DNA from: Anaerolineales bacterium
Lineage (GTDB): Bacteria > Chloroflexota > Anaerolineae > Anaerolineales > Villigracilaceae
Length of the DNA: 5,902 nucleotides
Assembly: GCA_015489255.1 (NCBI GenBank)
Contig: WGAD01000225.1
Span: 1-5,902 of the forward strand
Reading direction: 5' to 3'
Under the pieces are notes generated by a model. The model saw nothing but the letters and a program-made list of their open reading frames with translations, was not told where the DNA came from and searched no databases. The position numbers were made by a program, and so were the translations under genes. Each line of letters begins with the position of its first letter. The first letter of the stretch is position 1. Shown here piece by piece: positions 543-5,686 of the stretch.

Positions 543-1892
543 TCAGTCTTCGGTATAGGAGACGAAATCTTCTCGCGCCAGGCCTTGCCGAAAAGCCGTC
601 TGTGCGACGGCGCGGGCGACGGCCTGGTGTACCTCGCGGTTGAGCGGATCGGGGACGAGCTCCCCGGGCGGGGTGTTGGCTGCGATGGCCTCGGCGGCGG
701 CCAGCAGCATCTCCGGCGTGACGCGGGGAGCGTCGGCATCTACCAGGCCGCGGAAGATGCCGGGAAAGCCCAGCACATTGTTCACCGATTTACCATCGGC
801 GGCAAAGGCTGCGCCGGCGGCCAGGGCCGCCTCGGGGGTGATTTCCGGGTTGGGGTTAGAAAGCGCCAGGATGATCTGCCCCGGGCGCACCATTTCCGGT
901 TTGATCAACCCAGGGGCGCCGGTGGTCGCCACAACGATATCGCAGGTGCGCATGATGTCTTCCAGCGTGGCAGCCTGTCCGCCGTTGGCCTCGTGCCGCG
1001 CCAGGGCTTGCGGGTCCAGGTCGGCGCCCAGGACCGGGTTTTGGGTATAGGCCATCAACATGCGGGCAGTGGCGTTGCCGGCGGCGCCCAGGCCGATCTG
1101 CCCGATGCGAGCCTGTTTCAGGTCGCGGCCGGCCTCGCGGGCGGCCACCATCAGCGCGGCGGTGGTCACCACAGCCGTTCCGTGCTGGTCGTCGTGCATT
1201 ACGGGTTTGTCCAGCTGTTCTTGCAGGCGGCGTTCGATTTCAAAGCAACGCGGGGCGGAGATGTCTTCCAGCTGGATGGCGGCGAAGGTCGGCGCGATGT
1301 GGACGATGGTTGCGACGATTTCATCCACATCCTGGGTGTTGAGCAGAATGGGGACGCCAGACAGACCGACCAGGGTTTCCATCAGCATGGCCTTGCCTTC
1401 CATCACCGGCATTGCACCCAGGGGACCGATGTCGCCCAGACCGAGCACGGCGCTGCCGTCGGTGACGATGGCGATCAGGTGGCTGGTGATGGTGTAATGC
1501 CGCGCCAGGGCCGGGTCTTCGGCGATCATCAGGCAGACTTCGGCCACGCCCGGCGTGTACACCCGCCGCAGGGTTGCCAGAGAGTCGATCTGGTAGCGGC
1601 TGCGAATGGCGATCTTCCCTTTTTGGTGCAGTTCCAGCACTTCGTCGCGGACCTCCAGCACGCGGGTGCCGGGGTTGTTTTCTATGGCCTGCAATACTTG
1701 TTCAATAGATTGCGGGCTGTCGGCGTAGATGGTGATATCGCGGATGACGGAGGCCGAGGTTTCGGAGAGCAAACGAATGCCGCCGACAGAGCCGCCGGCG
1801 GCGGAGATGGCGGTCAGCAGGCGGGCCAGCGTGCCGACCTGTTGCCGGTTGCGGACGCGCACCGTGCGCATCAGCTTACGTTCCCAGGCCAT
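543..1892 (-). CDS. NAD-dependent malic enzyme with N-terminal ACT domain
   Basis: Oxidative decarboxylation of L-malate to pyruvate and CO2 with reduction of NAD(P)+; cytoplasmic, links the TCA cycle to pyruvate. 449 aa. Residues about 8-85 look like an ACT regulatory domain (TVRVRNRQQVGTLARLLTAI, then an RDITIYA strand). The catalytic core follows: YTPG with the general-acid Tyr112, TDGSAVLGLGDIGPLGAMPV (144-163), EGK with catalytic Lys167, QLED (207-210) and HDDQHGTA (233-240) for metal and substrate. A Rossmann GLGAAG sits at 267-272, with Asp291 at the end of the next strand favouring NAD over NADP (inference). SNPNPE (345-350) and NNVLGFPGIF (371-380) complete the signature. The length is normal for ACT plus core. 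The start ATG has GAGGAGG 4 nt upstream and overlaps the HAD 3' end by 17 nt, implying translational coupling. A later ATG (codon 8) lacks a good ribosome binding site. The ACT ligand cannot be read from sequence. Confidence 0.95.
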   Translation of the reverse strand: MAWERKLMRTVRVRNRQQVGTLARLLTAISAAGGSVGGIRLLSETSASVIRDITIYADSPQSIEQVLQAIENNPGTRVLEVRDEVLELHQKGKIAIRSRYQIDSLATLRRVYTPGVAEVCLMIAEDPALARHYTITSHLIAIVTDGSAVLGLGDIGPLGAMPVMEGKAMLMETLVGLSGVPILLNTQDVDEIVATIVHIAPTFAAIQLEDISAPRCFEIERRLQEQLDKPVMHDDQHGTAVVTTAALMVAAREAGRDLKQARIGQIGLGAAGNATARMLMAYTQNPVLGADLDPQALARHEANGGQAATLEDIMRTCDIVVATTGAPGLIKPEMVRPGQIILALSNPNPEITPEAALAAGAAFAADGKSVNNVLGFPGIFRGLVDADAPRVTPEMLLAAAEAIAANTPPGELVPDPLNREVHQAVARAVAQTAFRQGLAREDFVSYTED

Positions 1893-2601
1893 ATTTCCTC
1901 CTCAGGAGCGGGAGCAGATCGGGGAAGGCGTAAAAAACGGGACAGCCGGGGTCGTCGTACAGGCGGCGCCGGTCGAAGAGGATGGCTTCCATGCCCACGC
2001 GGCGGGCGCCGACGACATCGGCAAAGTAGTTATCGCCGATGTAGAGGCTTTCTTGTGGCTGGGCCTCTGCCAGCCGCAGGGCTTCATGAAAGGGCTGAGG
2101 GTCGGGTTTCCAGTGTTGCAGGTCGCCGGCGGCGATGATGAATTGAAAGAAATCTGCCAGCCCCAGGTCGGCGACCTCCTGGCTGTAATCCTGACGGCGG
2201 TTGGAAAGGATGCCGAGCGTCAGGCCGGCGTTGCGCAGGGTTTGCAGGGTTTCTGTCACCCCGGCGGGCAGACGGCTGGCGTATTCATAGCTGGCGGCCA
2301 TGAACTCACTGGCCAGGTCTGCCAGTTCGGCGGCCAGCGGTCTCCCCAACCCGTAGGCTGTCAGGCGGCGGCGGGCGTAGTTTTTCCAGAAATCCTGGCT
2401 GCCGAATTCATAGCGTGCGATATCCGCCAAAAGTTCGGGCGATTGTGCCCAGTAATATTGTTCCCAGCGGGCAGCGCGGCGGCGGTCTTCCTGGCTGGCG
2501 GGCCAGCCGATCTCGGCCAGGAAACCGGCGAAGGTGTCGGCTGGTTCGCGTTGGTTCAGGCGCAGGGTGCCGTCGAAGTCAAAGATCACGGCGCGTAACA
2601 T
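1876..2601 (-). CDS. HAD-superfamily hydrolase (probable phosphatase), substrate unknown
   Basis: A cytoplasmic phosphohydrolase of the haloacid dehalogenase superfamily, 241 aa from the ATG at 2601. Motif I DFDGTL gives the nucleophile Asp8 and the acid/base Asp10. Motif II LSNRR (Ser133, Asn134), motif III Lys165 in HWKPDPQPF, and motif IV GDNYFADVVGA with Asp190 and Asp195 binding Mg2+ are all present, so the active site looks complete. The region between motifs I and II (about 20-95) is rich in Trp, Tyr, Arg and Ala and would be the helical C1 cap that sets specificity. This places it near the phosphoglycolate phosphatase-like branch, but the substrate cannot be named. A TTG at 2610 is an alternative start, but GGAGG would then touch the start codon. 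The ATG at 2601 has GGAGG 9 nt upstream and gives the usual short N-terminus (MLRAVIFDFDGTL). It sits 5 nt after the moaA stop and overlaps the malic enzyme start, so all three are probably co-transcribed. Confidence 0.92.
   Translation of the reverse strand: MLRAVIFDFDGTLRLNQREPADTFAGFLAEIGWPASQEDRRRAARWEQYYWAQSPELLADIARYEFGSQDFWKNYARRRLTAYGLGRPLAAELADLASEFMAASYEYASRLPAGVTETLQTLRNAGLTLGILSNRRQDYSQEVADLGLADFFQFIIAAGDLQHWKPDPQPFHEALRLAEAQPQESLYIGDNYFADVVGARRVGMEAILFDRRRLYDDPGCPVFYAFPDLLPLLRRKYGLGT
1897..1903 (-). promoter_or_regulatory. Ribosome binding site of the malic enzyme gene
   Basis: The minus strand reads TGAGGAGGAAATATG. GAGGAGG is a near-perfect anti-16S match, though its 4-nt spacing to the ATG is on the short side. 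It lies inside the last codons of the HAD gene and supports the overlapping start at 1892. Confidence 0.8.
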
Positions 2602-2606
2602 CAAGT

Positions 2607-3587
2607 TCAACCTCCAATTTCACTCATAACGCGGTTCACAGGGATTTCGCCCGCCGCCAGGCCATGCCCCCAGGGCTTTTGCCAGATGGCCTCGAGGATC
2701 AACCGCCGCAGGGTTTCATCGGTTGCGCCGCGACGCAACGGGGTGAGCAGGTCGATCTCTTTTTCGCGCAAGAGGCACATACGCAGGACCCCGTCCGCGG
2801 TCAGGCGGGCGCGGGTGCAAGAAGCGCAGAAGGGCTGGCTCACCGAGGCGATCAATCCGATCTCACCGCGCGCGCCGGGCAAACGGTAGAGGCGGGCCTC
2901 GCCATCCAGCCGTCCGCCGTCTACGGGTTGCAGCGGTCCCAGCCGGGCCTCGATACGGGCGCGGATTTCTTCGGCGCGGATCGTCTGCTGCAGCTGAAAC
3001 TCGGTGGCTCCGCCAAAGGGCATCATCTCGATGAAGCGCACCTGCCAGGGGTATTCCCGGGTGAGGGCCGCCAGATCCACGACGTCGGTTTCGTTGTAGC
3101 CGCGGACGACGACGGCATTGATTTTGATGGGCGTCAGGCCGGCTTCTTCGGCAGCGCGGATGCCTTCCATGACCTCCTCCAGGCGGCCCCAGCGGGTCAG
3201 GCGGCGAAATTTTTGCGGATCGAGGGTATCGAGGCTGATGTTCACCCGTTTCAACCCGGCGGCGGCCAGATCGGCGGCCAATTTGCCCAGCAGGATGCCG
3301 TTGGTGGTCATGGTTACGCTGCGAATGCCGGGGGTAGCTGCGATCTCCCGCACGAGTTCTGTCACCCGGGCGCGGATGGTAGGTTCGCCGCCGGTCAGGC
3401 GGATTTTGTCGAAGCCTATGCCGGAAAAGAGCCGCACAAGGCGCAGGATTTCATCGTCTTGCATCAGGGCGTCTTGCGGGCGAAAGGTCATATCCTCTGG
3501 CATGCAATAAACGCAGCGCAAGTTGCAATGGTCTGTCAGGCTGAGGCGCAAGTAATGGATGGGGCGGCCAAAGCGGTCTAGGGCCAT
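2607..3587 (-). CDS. moaA: GTP 3',8-cyclase MoaA, molybdenum cofactor biosynthesis
   Basis: A radical SAM enzyme that, with MoaC, converts GTP to cyclic pyranopterin monophosphate, the first step of molybdopterin synthesis. 326 aa, the normal length. The N-terminal SAM cluster motif is Cys21-x3-Cys25-x2-Cys28 (CNLRCVYC). TGGEP (65-69) is the SAM-binding GGEP motif, MTTNG lies at 93-97 and NISLDTLDP at 116-124. FIEMMPFG (185-192) is a family signature. The second, C-terminal 4Fe-4S cluster uses Cys254, Cys257 and Cys271 (CASC, then 13 residues to the third Cys). The protein ends in Gly-Gly, the conserved MoaA tail needed for catalysis in studied homologues. The ATG has TGGAGG 7 nt upstream. 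It is first in the operon with the HAD and malic enzyme genes, and no other Moco gene (moaC, moaE, moeA) is visible here. Every catalytic feature is intact. Confidence 0.97.
   Translation of the reverse strand: MALDRFGRPIHYLRLSLTDHCNLRCVYCMPEDMTFRPQDALMQDDEILRLVRLFSGIGFDKIRLTGGEPTIRARVTELVREIAATPGIRSVTMTTNGILLGKLAADLAAAGLKRVNISLDTLDPQKFRRLTRWGRLEEVMEGIRAAEEAGLTPIKINAVVVRGYNETDVVDLAALTREYPWQVRFIEMMPFGGATEFQLQQTIRAEEIRARIEARLGPLQPVDGGRLDGEARLYRLPGARGEIGLIASVSQPFCASCTRARLTADGVLRMCLLREKEIDLLTPLRRGATDETLRRLILEAIWQKPWGHGLAAGEIPVNRVMSEIGG
2611..2615 (-). promoter_or_regulatory. Ribosome binding site that decides the HAD start
   Basis: GGAGG lies within the last codons of moaA. It is directly adjacent to the TTG at 2610 (zero spacing) and 9 nt from the ATG at 2601. 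This is why the ATG is preferred. Confidence 0.75.
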
Positions 3588-3719: not shown

Positions 3720-3761
3720 GGCAGCGTTGGCTGAGTAGCCTGCTACTCAACCAGCGCCGCC
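3720..3761 (+). repeat. Long imperfect inverted repeat (hairpin)
   Basis: The centre is GAGTAGCCTGCTACTC (3733-3748). Pairing continues outward through T3732/A3749, G3730-G3729-T3728 with C3751-C3752-A3753, and 3724-3726 with 3755-3757, out to about 3720/3761. There are two mismatched positions (3731/3750 and 3723/3758) and one G-T pair (3727/3754). There is no T-run on either side, so it is not a standard terminator. Confidence 0.6.
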
Positions 3762-3770
3762 GCGCGGCGG
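3757..3770 (+). repeat. Perfect 14-bp palindrome
   Basis: CCGCCGCGCGGCGG is a perfect palindrome overlapping the right arm of the larger hairpin. The two structures are partly mutually exclusive in RNA. Confidence 0.55.
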
Positions 3771-3793
3771 ACGTCACCACCGCGGCGGGGAAA

Positions 3794-3820
3794 GGCTGGT
3801 TCAGGAAGGGGGCGCCAGCC
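3794..3820 (-). repeat. Inverted repeat just downstream of the 28-aa ORF
   Basis: On the minus strand GGCTGG (3820-3815) and CCAGCC (3799-3794) form a 6-bp stem with a 15-nt loop, followed by TTTCCCC. It starts 4 nt after the small ORF stop. It could act as a weak 3'-end structure; the large loop makes this tentative. Confidence 0.3.
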
Positions 3821-3824
3821 CAAC

Positions 3825-3911
3825 TTACGGTTTTGGTTTCCGCCGCCTGCGCCAGAGCCACATCCCAATCCACGCCCCAACAATGCCTGCCAGCACCATC
3901 CAGCCGCTCAT
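3825..3911 (-). CDS. 28-aa putative single-pass membrane protein
   Basis: This short ORF runs from ATG (3911-3909) to TAA (3827-3825). It begins MSGWMVLAGIVGAWIGMWLW and continues with RRRRKPKP: one hydrophobic segment (about 4-20) rich in Gly and Trp, followed by a strongly basic tail. By the positive-inside rule the C-terminus would face the cytoplasm. The minus strand reads AGGAGGAAGAATG, a perfect Shine-Dalgarno with 4-nt spacing, which is the main support for translation. In the sequence before the IS insertion, its ATG overlaps the stop of the upstream membrane gene as ATGA, implying translational coupling. The IS now separates it from that gene, so it may have lost its promoter. I do not recognise the family; tiny membrane subunits or regulators are possible. 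A chance ORF cannot be excluded at this length. Confidence 0.55.
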   Translation of the reverse strand: MSGWMVLAGIVGAWIGMWLWRRRRKPKP

Positions 3912-3945
3912 TCTTCCTCCTGCGCCCAGGGACGGTTATCCCAGA

Positions 3946-3952
3946 GATATAT
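3946..3952 (+). repeat. Target-site duplication, left copy (GATATAT)
   Basis: GATATAT directly abuts the left inverted repeat and is identical to 5047-5053 beyond the right inverted repeat. Confidence 0.9.
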
Positions 3953-3977
3953 TGTACTCTAACCCTTCTTTCTTGAC
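3953..3977 (+). repeat. Left terminal inverted repeat of the IS
   Basis: It begins TGTACTCT and ends TTCTTTCTTGAC. Compared with the reverse complement of 5022-5046, 21 of 25 positions match; the mismatches lie between the two blocks. The inner TTGAC is -35-like and faces inward, but no matching -10 at proper spacing was found. Confidence 0.93.
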
Positions 3978-3999
3978 GGTGATATGATATAGGCAAGTC

Positions 4000-4005
4000 A
4001 AGGAG
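4000..4005 (+). promoter_or_regulatory. Ribosome binding site of the transposase
   Basis: AAGGAG lies 8 nt upstream of the ATG at 4014, which fixes the start. Confidence 0.75.
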
Positions 4006-4013
4006 AAAAAACG

Positions 4014-5039
4014 ATGAATACCGATCCGGCAACAAAATTGGCTCGTCAACGGCTGAGCGTCCTGGAACTGGCGGAAGCGCTGGGCAACGTGAGCGAAGCC
4101 TGTCGGCGGCGCGGGATCAGCCGCACGACGTTTTACGAATACAAAAAGCGCTATGAAGCCCATGGGCTGGAAGGGTTGAAAGACCTGCCACCGATTCCAA
4201 AATCGCATCCATTTACCACCCCGCCGGAAGTAGTTGAGCGGATTCTGGAAATCAGCTTGGAAGACCCGGCGCGAGGCTGCAATTGGATCAGCGACCGGTT
4301 GAAACTGGAAGGAACACCCGTCAGTTATCCCACCGTACAGAAAATTTTGAACAAACACGGCATGGGGACGCGCTACGAACGCTGGCTGCGGTTGGAAGAG
4401 AAAGCGCAGGAAAAAGGCTTTGCTTTGAATGCAGCACAGCAGCAATTTCTGGAGAAACAGAACCCGCAGTGGCGTGAAAAACACATTGAAAGCCAGGCGC
4501 CAGGCGAATTATTGTCCCAAGATACGTTTTACGTGGGGCGCATGAAGGGTGTGGGGCGCATTTACCTGCATGTGGTGGTGGACACCTACTCCAGTTTTGC
4601 CTTTGGTTTTCTGTATACGTCCAAGCAGGCGGAAGCGGCGGTATCGGTGCTGCACAATGATGCCTTGCCTTTCTACAAACAGCATGAGATTCCGGTGAAG
4701 GCTGTGCTAACGGATAACGGCACGGAATTCTGTGGCACGCCCGAACATCCGTATGAGTTGTACTTGGCATTGAACGAGATTGAACATCGCCGCACCCCGG
4801 TGCGTCGTCCACAGAGCAATGGCTTTGTAGAGCGCTTCAACCGGACAGTCAACGAAGAGTTCTTCCAACGGGCATGGCGCCAGAAGTTATACACTTCGTT
4901 GGAGGAATTGCAGGCGGACCTGGATGAATGGCTGCGGTATTACAACTACGAACGACCGCATCAAGGATACCGCAACATGGGCCGCCGACCGTTCGATACC
5001 ATTCAGTTGTTCTTAAGAAATGTCAAGAAAGAAAACTAA
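4014..5039 (+). CDS. IS481-family transposase (DDE, rve integrase core)
   Basis: Cuts and joins the element's ends during transposition. 341 aa, full length. The N-terminus (about 14-47) is a helix-turn-helix for binding the inverted repeats (NVSEACRRRGISRTTFYEY), followed by a second helical DNA-binding region up to about 125. The rve core begins near 163. The likely catalytic triad is Asp170 (LLSQDTFYVG), Asp234 (LTDNGTEFCG) and Glu273 (NGFVERFNRT). VDTYSSFAFGFLYTSK, RRPQSNG and the C-terminal YNYERPHQGYRNMGRRP stretch are characteristic of IS481 members. No frameshift or stop is seen. The TAA stop lies inside the right inverted repeat and overlaps, on the opposite strand, the TAG that now ends the neighbouring membrane gene. 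Codon use is less GC-biased than the moaA operon, consistent with an acquired element. Confidence 0.96.
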   Translation: MNTDPATKLARQRLSVLELAEALGNVSEACRRRGISRTTFYEYKKRYEAHGLEGLKDLPPIPKSHPFTTPPEVVERILEISLEDPARGCNWISDRLKLEGTPVSYPTVQKILNKHGMGTRYERWLRLEEKAQEKGFALNAAQQQFLEKQNPQWREKHIESQAPGELLSQDTFYVGRMKGVGRIYLHVVVDTYSSFAFGFLYTSKQAEAAVSVLHNDALPFYKQHEIPVKAVLTDNGTEFCGTPEHPYELYLALNEIEHRRTPVRRPQSNGFVERFNRTVNEEFFQRAWRQKLYTSLEELQADLDEWLRYYNYERPHQGYRNMGRRPFDTIQLFLRNVKKEN

Positions 5040-5046
5040 GAGTACA
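5022..5046 (-). repeat. Right terminal inverted repeat of the IS
   Basis: The minus strand reads TGTACTCT, five variable bases, then TTCTTTCTTGAC, mirroring the left end. It contains the stop codons of both the transposase and the truncated membrane gene. Confidence 0.93.
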
Positions 5047-5686
5047 GATATATAGAGAGACCTGGCGTTACAAGAAACACAAGTGTCCAAGCCAAAAGAC
5101 CCATTATCAAAACCGCTAAGCGCGTCTGCCCATTTCTATGAAAGTACATTCCAAGTGCTGCGCTCGCCGTACCAAATACACCTAAAAGGGAAAAGAGATG
5201 TCCGCTCAGTTGTATGGGTATTTGAGATAATTTCTTAGCTCTAGAATAAGACAAGATTGGCATAAACCATAGCAGAATATGCAACATGATCAGAGTACCA
5301 TTCACTACAAGATTCCTTGGATAGTTTATTGTTGCGCCCAATAATGATACTGCAGACCACACCGCTCCAATGTACAAATACACCATTGTAAATAAAGTGG
5401 ACAGCCATCGGCGCCAAAATTGTCGCGAGTGCCACGCCCAACGCGTTAAGAATATGGACAACAAAATTCCACTCCCTACAAAGATTTCATCTGTCGTCAA
5501 GGGAGGAAAGATTGGCGGATCACTTCTAAAACCAGGATAGCGACCAGGGTTTCTTACTTCAAGAAGGATCAAATCAAGCCACCAGCACACCGAAGTAACG
5601 AATACCCACATGATCAATCCCAAAGTTATTGCTCTCCACAGAGGAAGAGAAACGACTTTAGGCGCTGAATCTTTCTCTAGCGACAT
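5036..5686 (-). CDS. Six-helix membrane protein of unknown function, 3' end replaced by the IS
   Basis: 216 aa as it stands. About six hydrophobic segments can be read: 17-42, 68-82, 97-118, 126-146, 160-182 and 189-212. The short N-terminus carries charged residues, and WAWHSRQFWRRW (83-94) is an Arg/Trp-rich loop, so N- and C-termini are probably cytoplasmic. I recognise no family and see no catalytic motif. The last three codons (Leu-Tyr-Ser) and the TAG come from the IS right end. Removing the IS and one GATATAT copy gives Tyr213 followed by LWDNRPWAQEEE and TGA, a 225-aa protein. All helices survive, so the truncated form may still fold. The start ATG has AAGGAG 5 nt upstream. It follows the upstream gene by 27 nt, consistent with an operon. 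The region is visibly AT-richer than the moaA side, suggesting horizontal gain. It might be an immunity or transport-like protein; neither is shown. Confidence 0.75.
   Translation of the reverse strand: MSLEKDSAPKVVSLPLWRAITLGLIMWVFVTSVCWWLDLILLEVRNPGRYPGFRSDPPIFPPLTTDEIFVGSGILLSIFLTRWAWHSRQFWRRWLSTLFTMVYLYIGAVWSAVSLLGATINYPRNLVVNGTLIMLHILLWFMPILSYSRAKKLSQIPIQLSGHLFSLLGVFGTASAALGMYFHRNGQTRLAVLIMGLLAWTLVFLVTPGLSIYLYS
5047..5053 (+). repeat. Target-site duplication, right copy (GATATAT)
   Basis: Identical to 3946-3952. It lies within the coding sequence of the membrane protein gene on the minus strand. Confidence 0.9.

Follow-up and report, generated by a model that had tools for sequence, protein, structure and literature searches.

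Which gene did an insertion sequence interrupt in this Anaerolineales genome, and what might the intact gene have done? The locus lies in a stretch of 5,902 nucleotides (positions 1 to 5,902 of contig WGAD01000225.1, assembly GCA_015489255.1; hereafter the window), where an element of the IS481 family occupies positions 3953..5046 (+). Its 341-aa transposase (4014..5039, +) scored 282.1 bits against model NF033577, above the family cut-off of 224, and matched the rve and HTH Pfam domains. The inverted ends of the element (25 nt, 3953-3977 and 5022-5046) are 84% complementary, and exact copies of the 7-bp target repeat GATATAT stand to its left (3946..3952) and right (5047..5053), in keeping with the simple insertion that the original prediction had proposed from the letters of the window. 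In transposase model, terminal inverted repeats and target repeat the element agrees with other IS481 members, with no notable difference. The host assembly (86% complete) holds one copy, and a survey of 150 genomes of the family including the host, with up to three first-look candidates scored per genome, found the element in the host genome only (E ≤ 1e-20).

The element cuts a membrane-protein gene on the minus strand (5036..5686), a candidate immunity gene, which now reads 216 codons with six hydrophobic segments and ends in SIYLYS, the last three codons and the TAG stop being supplied by the end of the insertion sequence. With the element and one GATATAT copy removed, the flanks join in frame, 213 codons being followed by 12, to give a gene of 225 codons ending SIYLWDNRPWAQEEE. 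The severed end, made up of the 12 codons LWDNRPWAQEEE and a TGA, lies at 3908..3946 (−), its first base within the target repeat. This TGA (3910-3908) overlaps the ATG (3911-3909) of a 28-codon open reading frame (ORF), forming an ATGA stop/start overlap (3908..3911, −); the sequence at this point is AGGA in genome G060. The coordinates of the original prediction were all exact, and its exact rebuild of the pre-insertion gene stands, the tail being in frame and the scores against a profile of relatives rising on joining. Both the insertion and the reconstruction of the gene can be taken as all but proven.

The predicted product, a six-helix protein of 225 aa, is also supported. Hydropathy places six membrane segments in the joined protein and in two of its relatives (P0003 and P0006) and five in a third (P0005), and the structure model of P0003 (pLDDT 62.8) contains six long helices and one split helix. 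Judged by eye from the basic loops, the acidic C-terminal tail is predicted to lie on the cytoplasmic side. Because the end of the insertion sequence provides a new stop, a shortened protein lacking just this tail could still be made.

Relatives of the protein are few and distant. The cut protein matched only itself among 5.8 billion proteins, so a profile that included a relative from genome G185 was needed. Searched against whole genomes, it matched 2 of 61, the host included, with a weak match in G060; among 18 genomes of the family of G060 it matched two, G060 itself and G185. The G185 relative has 211 aa, ends FEVWQTRPWAKEKE and has the stop context GAATGAG. Its tail match is independent, because the severed tail of the window was absent from the query that found it. 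A two-row profile then retrieved P0002-P0005 from the protein database and a six-row profile P0006-P0008, giving eight relatives: the one in G185 and these seven database proteins. To the rest of the family the window protein is distantly related, its identity to P0003 being 21%.

The tails of these relatives are conserved. The original prediction had named homologues with a LWDNRPW-like tail as a check on the rebuilt gene, and a WQT-type tail is present in all eight, with PW in seven and RPW in six; the joined window protein has WDN where its relatives have WQT, and its last 12 residues otherwise follow the WQT.PW..E tail type of the family. The distance from the W to the end is 11 residues in 7 of the 8, equal to that of the joined protein. 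The exceptions are P0005 (SR instead of PW), P0008 (CPW) and P0004 (shorter by one residue).

Scores against these relatives indicate that the join is more than chance. Against a five-relative profile from which the window was excluded, the cut protein scored 30.2 bits and the joined protein 40.5 bits, a value reached by none of 2,000 random window tails (best 37.7). Against the eight-relative profile the joined protein scored 43.2 bits; of 11,744 tails, one started at each window position on both strands, three reached this score, all of them the severed tail itself in the same frame, and the best other tail (41.0 bits) was a stretch of the membrane protein's own gene. The GC content, 43% within the membrane gene, is 61% across 3825-3945, as might be expected if a rearrangement had placed an unrelated left flank beside the membrane gene and the join were a coincidence; the exact 7-bp repeats, the match of the relatives to the severed tail and the side-by-side order in G060 make this exceedingly improbable. 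The original prediction had also argued that in-frame read-through, the ATGA junction and a strong ribosome-binding site are together unlikely by chance. The tail does outscore random window tails, but the three are not independent of one another, because the acidic tail, itself conserved, already spells AGGAGG and supplies the A of ATGA through its codons (GAG GAA GAA TGA).

Loci without the element were seen in two other genomes, G060 and G185. On contig C52 of G060, membrane-gene matches at 8793-9199 are followed, 41 nt behind, by a match to the 28-codon ORF (9240-9308), and preceded by an ORF resembling the one upstream of the membrane gene in the window (50% over 40 aa, E = 2.6e-12, pairwise). 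At the DNA level, window and G060 share 71 nt at 77%, spanning the stop/start and the small frame. The G060 membrane gene is in pieces in different frames, through decay or sequencing error. G060 nonetheless keeps the gene order, so an uninterrupted relative with an adjoining small frame exists, and the left flank stays beside the membrane gene, as the rebuilt gene predicts. G185 repeats the ATGA overlap behind its membrane gene. Left-flank DNA matched 145 of the 150 family genomes at E ≤ 1; because none of the matches listed outside the host is long, the best spanning 26 nt (E = 9.5e-5), no empty site was found in this close kin.

Whether the 28-codon ORF (3825..3911, −) was a gene of the original operon is a separate matter. 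The original prediction had paired the membrane protein with a translationally coupled 28-aa peptide preceded by a perfect Shine-Dalgarno. The ATGA overlap and the AGGAGG both exist, and 23 residues of the ORF agree at 78% with the beginning of a longer frame in G060 (E = 3.6e-7, the best match outside the host among 301 genomes; next best 0.0026), with AAAGGAG ahead of an in-frame ATG. Yet that G060 frame continues into TPR repeats; behind the G185 membrane gene there is no such peptide, the ATG at the overlap opening 15 unrelated codons (by eye); and the AGGAGG, spelled by tail codons, is not independent evidence of a ribosome-binding site. Moreover, the last four codons and the stop of the ORF fall in a repeat common to host contig C58 (3782..3841, −; 60 nt at 83%), whose first 22 nt (3841-3820), the KPKP codons and the stop among them, are identical. 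A real coupled peptide gene is accordingly improbable, and because the G060 frame is longer, G185 lacks the peptide and the end codons lie inside the C58 repeat, we favour reading the ORF as a remnant, what is left of the start of a membrane-anchored protein. A Transgly_assoc match of the 28-aa ORF (E = 0.0011; 19.6 bits against a cut-off of 25.3) was judged low complexity and set aside.

The membrane protein resembles no named family in the searches made. Pfam gave no match for the cut protein (P0001), and NCBIfam gave none for P0003 and for P0001 just MusI, which at 17.4 bits against a cut-off of 160 was judged chance. Foldseek with the P0003 model yielded no fold match (best E = 0.53), the profile found a single chance-level match (E = 0.84) among the sequences of solved structures, and PADLOC reported none on eight proteins. 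A search of genome contigs with one pattern returned the G185 record alone, and viral contigs, plasmids and phages yielded nothing. In a search of 400 genomes, 14 matched at E ≤ 0.1, all of them weak (E = 7.9e-4 or worse) besides the host, G185 and G060; six weak loci (L027-L032) were inspected by eye and discarded, the tail being seen in none. With the six-row profile, 3 of 396 genomes matched: the host, G441 (E = 1.1e-4) and G472 (E = 0.005), the last of which was discarded as a relative. The G441 locus (L073), from the same class, encodes a membrane protein in which WHLSDPPWRMAEK stands close to the end; this protein may be a remote relative with the tail retained, and was left out of all relative counts. 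Together these results point to an unnamed membrane-protein family.

What the family might do is suggested by its surroundings, which are readable for the G060 and G185 relatives, P0002-P0008 being known as proteins alone. Immediately upstream of the membrane gene, an ORF cut by the contig end (5714..5902, −; its last 62 codons) carries two hydrophobic segments and a putatively toxin-like tail, and it resembles the ORF in the same position in G060. The membrane gene lies directly behind a two-helix ORF in the window and in G060. This arrangement was not seen in G185, where no such two-helix ORF was recognised upstream and inspection by eye showed only a short ORF with a single hydrophobic stretch. 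Downstream, the repeat at 3757..3813 (−) has two further copies in host contig C44, one in C246 and a partial one in C58. The C44 and C246 copies read as a protein prefix (APFLN..F.AAVVTSAA.R), with the sequence APFLNRLFHAAVVTSAA.RVKAAWERRQAR or nearly so, and the window copy may be where the next cassette remnant begins. In C44 the prefix runs into an ORF of 401 aa that contains an HHH domain and, judged by eye, has a hydrophobic end; in C246 it soon meets a stop. An imperfect inverted repeat of 42 nt (3720-3761, 81%), located between this prefix remnant and moaA, could form a hairpin. The stretch 543-3587 (−) encodes a malic enzyme with an ACT-like stretch, a HAD-type hydrolase and MoaA; GC content is 63.3% in moaA and 43.3% in the membrane gene, a contrast in keeping with a cassette setting for the latter.

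The G060 and G185 relatives are both situated in arrays of polymorphic-toxin type, that is, rows of ORFs that share a prefix and differ behind it, a context that the original prediction had missed. G060 ORFs share a QAASGRTPQPGP module (71 aa at 77%; 82 aa at 44%), one of which has Ntox44 at its end (38.8 bits, cut-off 24) and another of which carries a C39-like peptidase (26.1 bits, cut-off 24). The G185 contig has a prefix related to the G060 module (62 aa at 55%) and a second, proline/threonine-rich piece (27 aa at 89%, low-complexity filter off). The same plan of a common prefix with differing continuations is seen in the host repeat in C44 and C246. The ORF row at 1-9600 of G060 contig C52 (L022) also includes one with a HELGHA metallopeptidase-like motif (by eye). 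The gene behind the C44 prefix ORF is related to that behind the G185 membrane gene (26% over 381 columns, E = 4e-22, pairwise); these ORFs of about 450-470 aa (L062, 2667-4010; L023, 341-1747), which have no Pfam family above cut-off, are possibly another partner family of the cassettes. Directly ahead of the first prefix copy in C44 stands an ORF (L062, 609-1430) with an FGE-sulfatase (formylglycine-generating-enzyme-like) domain. The scanned ORFs of the host genome contained no toxin family, and the G060 prefix ORF had no match in the host assembly, where no full-length parent gene was seen. The window contig ends inside the upstream ORF, so a prefix joined to it is not visible there; in G060 the two-helix ORF (8533-8775) is separated by other ORFs from the nearest prefix (7008-7427), and in G185 a 248-aa ORF stands between prefix pieces and membrane gene.

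The setting is most likely a toxin/immunity cassette. Our reading, which on balance we favour, is that the insertion sequence cut a conserved tail from a six-helix gene that was probably the immunity gene of an orphan cassette of polymorphic-toxin type, a kind of weapon between bacteria. The product of the two-helix ORF immediately upstream, itself hydrophobic, would be the end of a toxin that inserts into the membrane, where the six-helix protein would block it as its immunity partner. That the membrane protein has some other role and merely lies in a toxin-rich island, with insertion and rebuild unaffected, would agree with the lack of any domain or fold match and with the intervening ORFs in G185. 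We consider this rather unlikely, given the toxin-type prefix modules on the same contig in both readable outside genomes and the cassette prefix of the host genome found behind the membrane gene in the window. The gene order common to the window and G060, and the hydrophobicity of both proteins, would also suit a joint membrane toxin or secreted-peptide system in which the six-helix protein is no antidote; but the G185 gene has no recognisable two-helix partner (by eye), and immunity genes typically stand behind toxin ends in such arrays, in the account of orphan modules in PMC3150448, which makes a joint system very unlikely.

The immunity reading draws on known systems by analogy. Orphan toxin/immunity modules of CDI and Rhs systems are described as tandem fragments that start with parent-gene sequence and are followed by candidate immunity genes, and disruption of such modules by insertion sequences is reported (both in PMC3150448). 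The arrays described here follow that plan, and the window has its own insertion sequence; they differ in their prefix sequences, in that no full-length parent gene was seen in the host genome, and in that the immunity role here is a prediction. Ntox44, whose holders include chloroflexi, is shared with the G060 array, and Tox-WTIP, a two-helix domain of polymorphic toxins, makes two-helix hydrophobic toxin ends a known idea (both in PMC3482391); the two-helix tail of the window is likened to Tox-WTIP by description, not by sequence. In Tse5/Tsi5, a pore-forming toxin end is paired with an integral-membrane immunity protein; Tsi5 has two predicted membrane segments (PMC9637101) against six in the window family. 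Through Tox-WTIP and Tse5/Tsi5 together we infer the pairing of a membrane toxin with its immunity protein. The glycine-zipper toxin TelE (PMC10434224) is a looser parallel to the proposed membrane toxin end.

The gene as it stood before the insertion, deduced from a single raw sequence, was thus borne out by relatives found later, and the locus points to a prefix-led array of toxin cassettes in Anaerolineales-type bacteria. More tentatively, an undescribed six-helix immunity family with a W..RPW..EEE cytoplasmic tail might guard Anaerolineales against cassette-borne two-helix toxins, and the insertion would then be a natural removal of that tail. If the immunity role is true, these cassettes would extend the known polymorphic toxins by a pair of membrane type.
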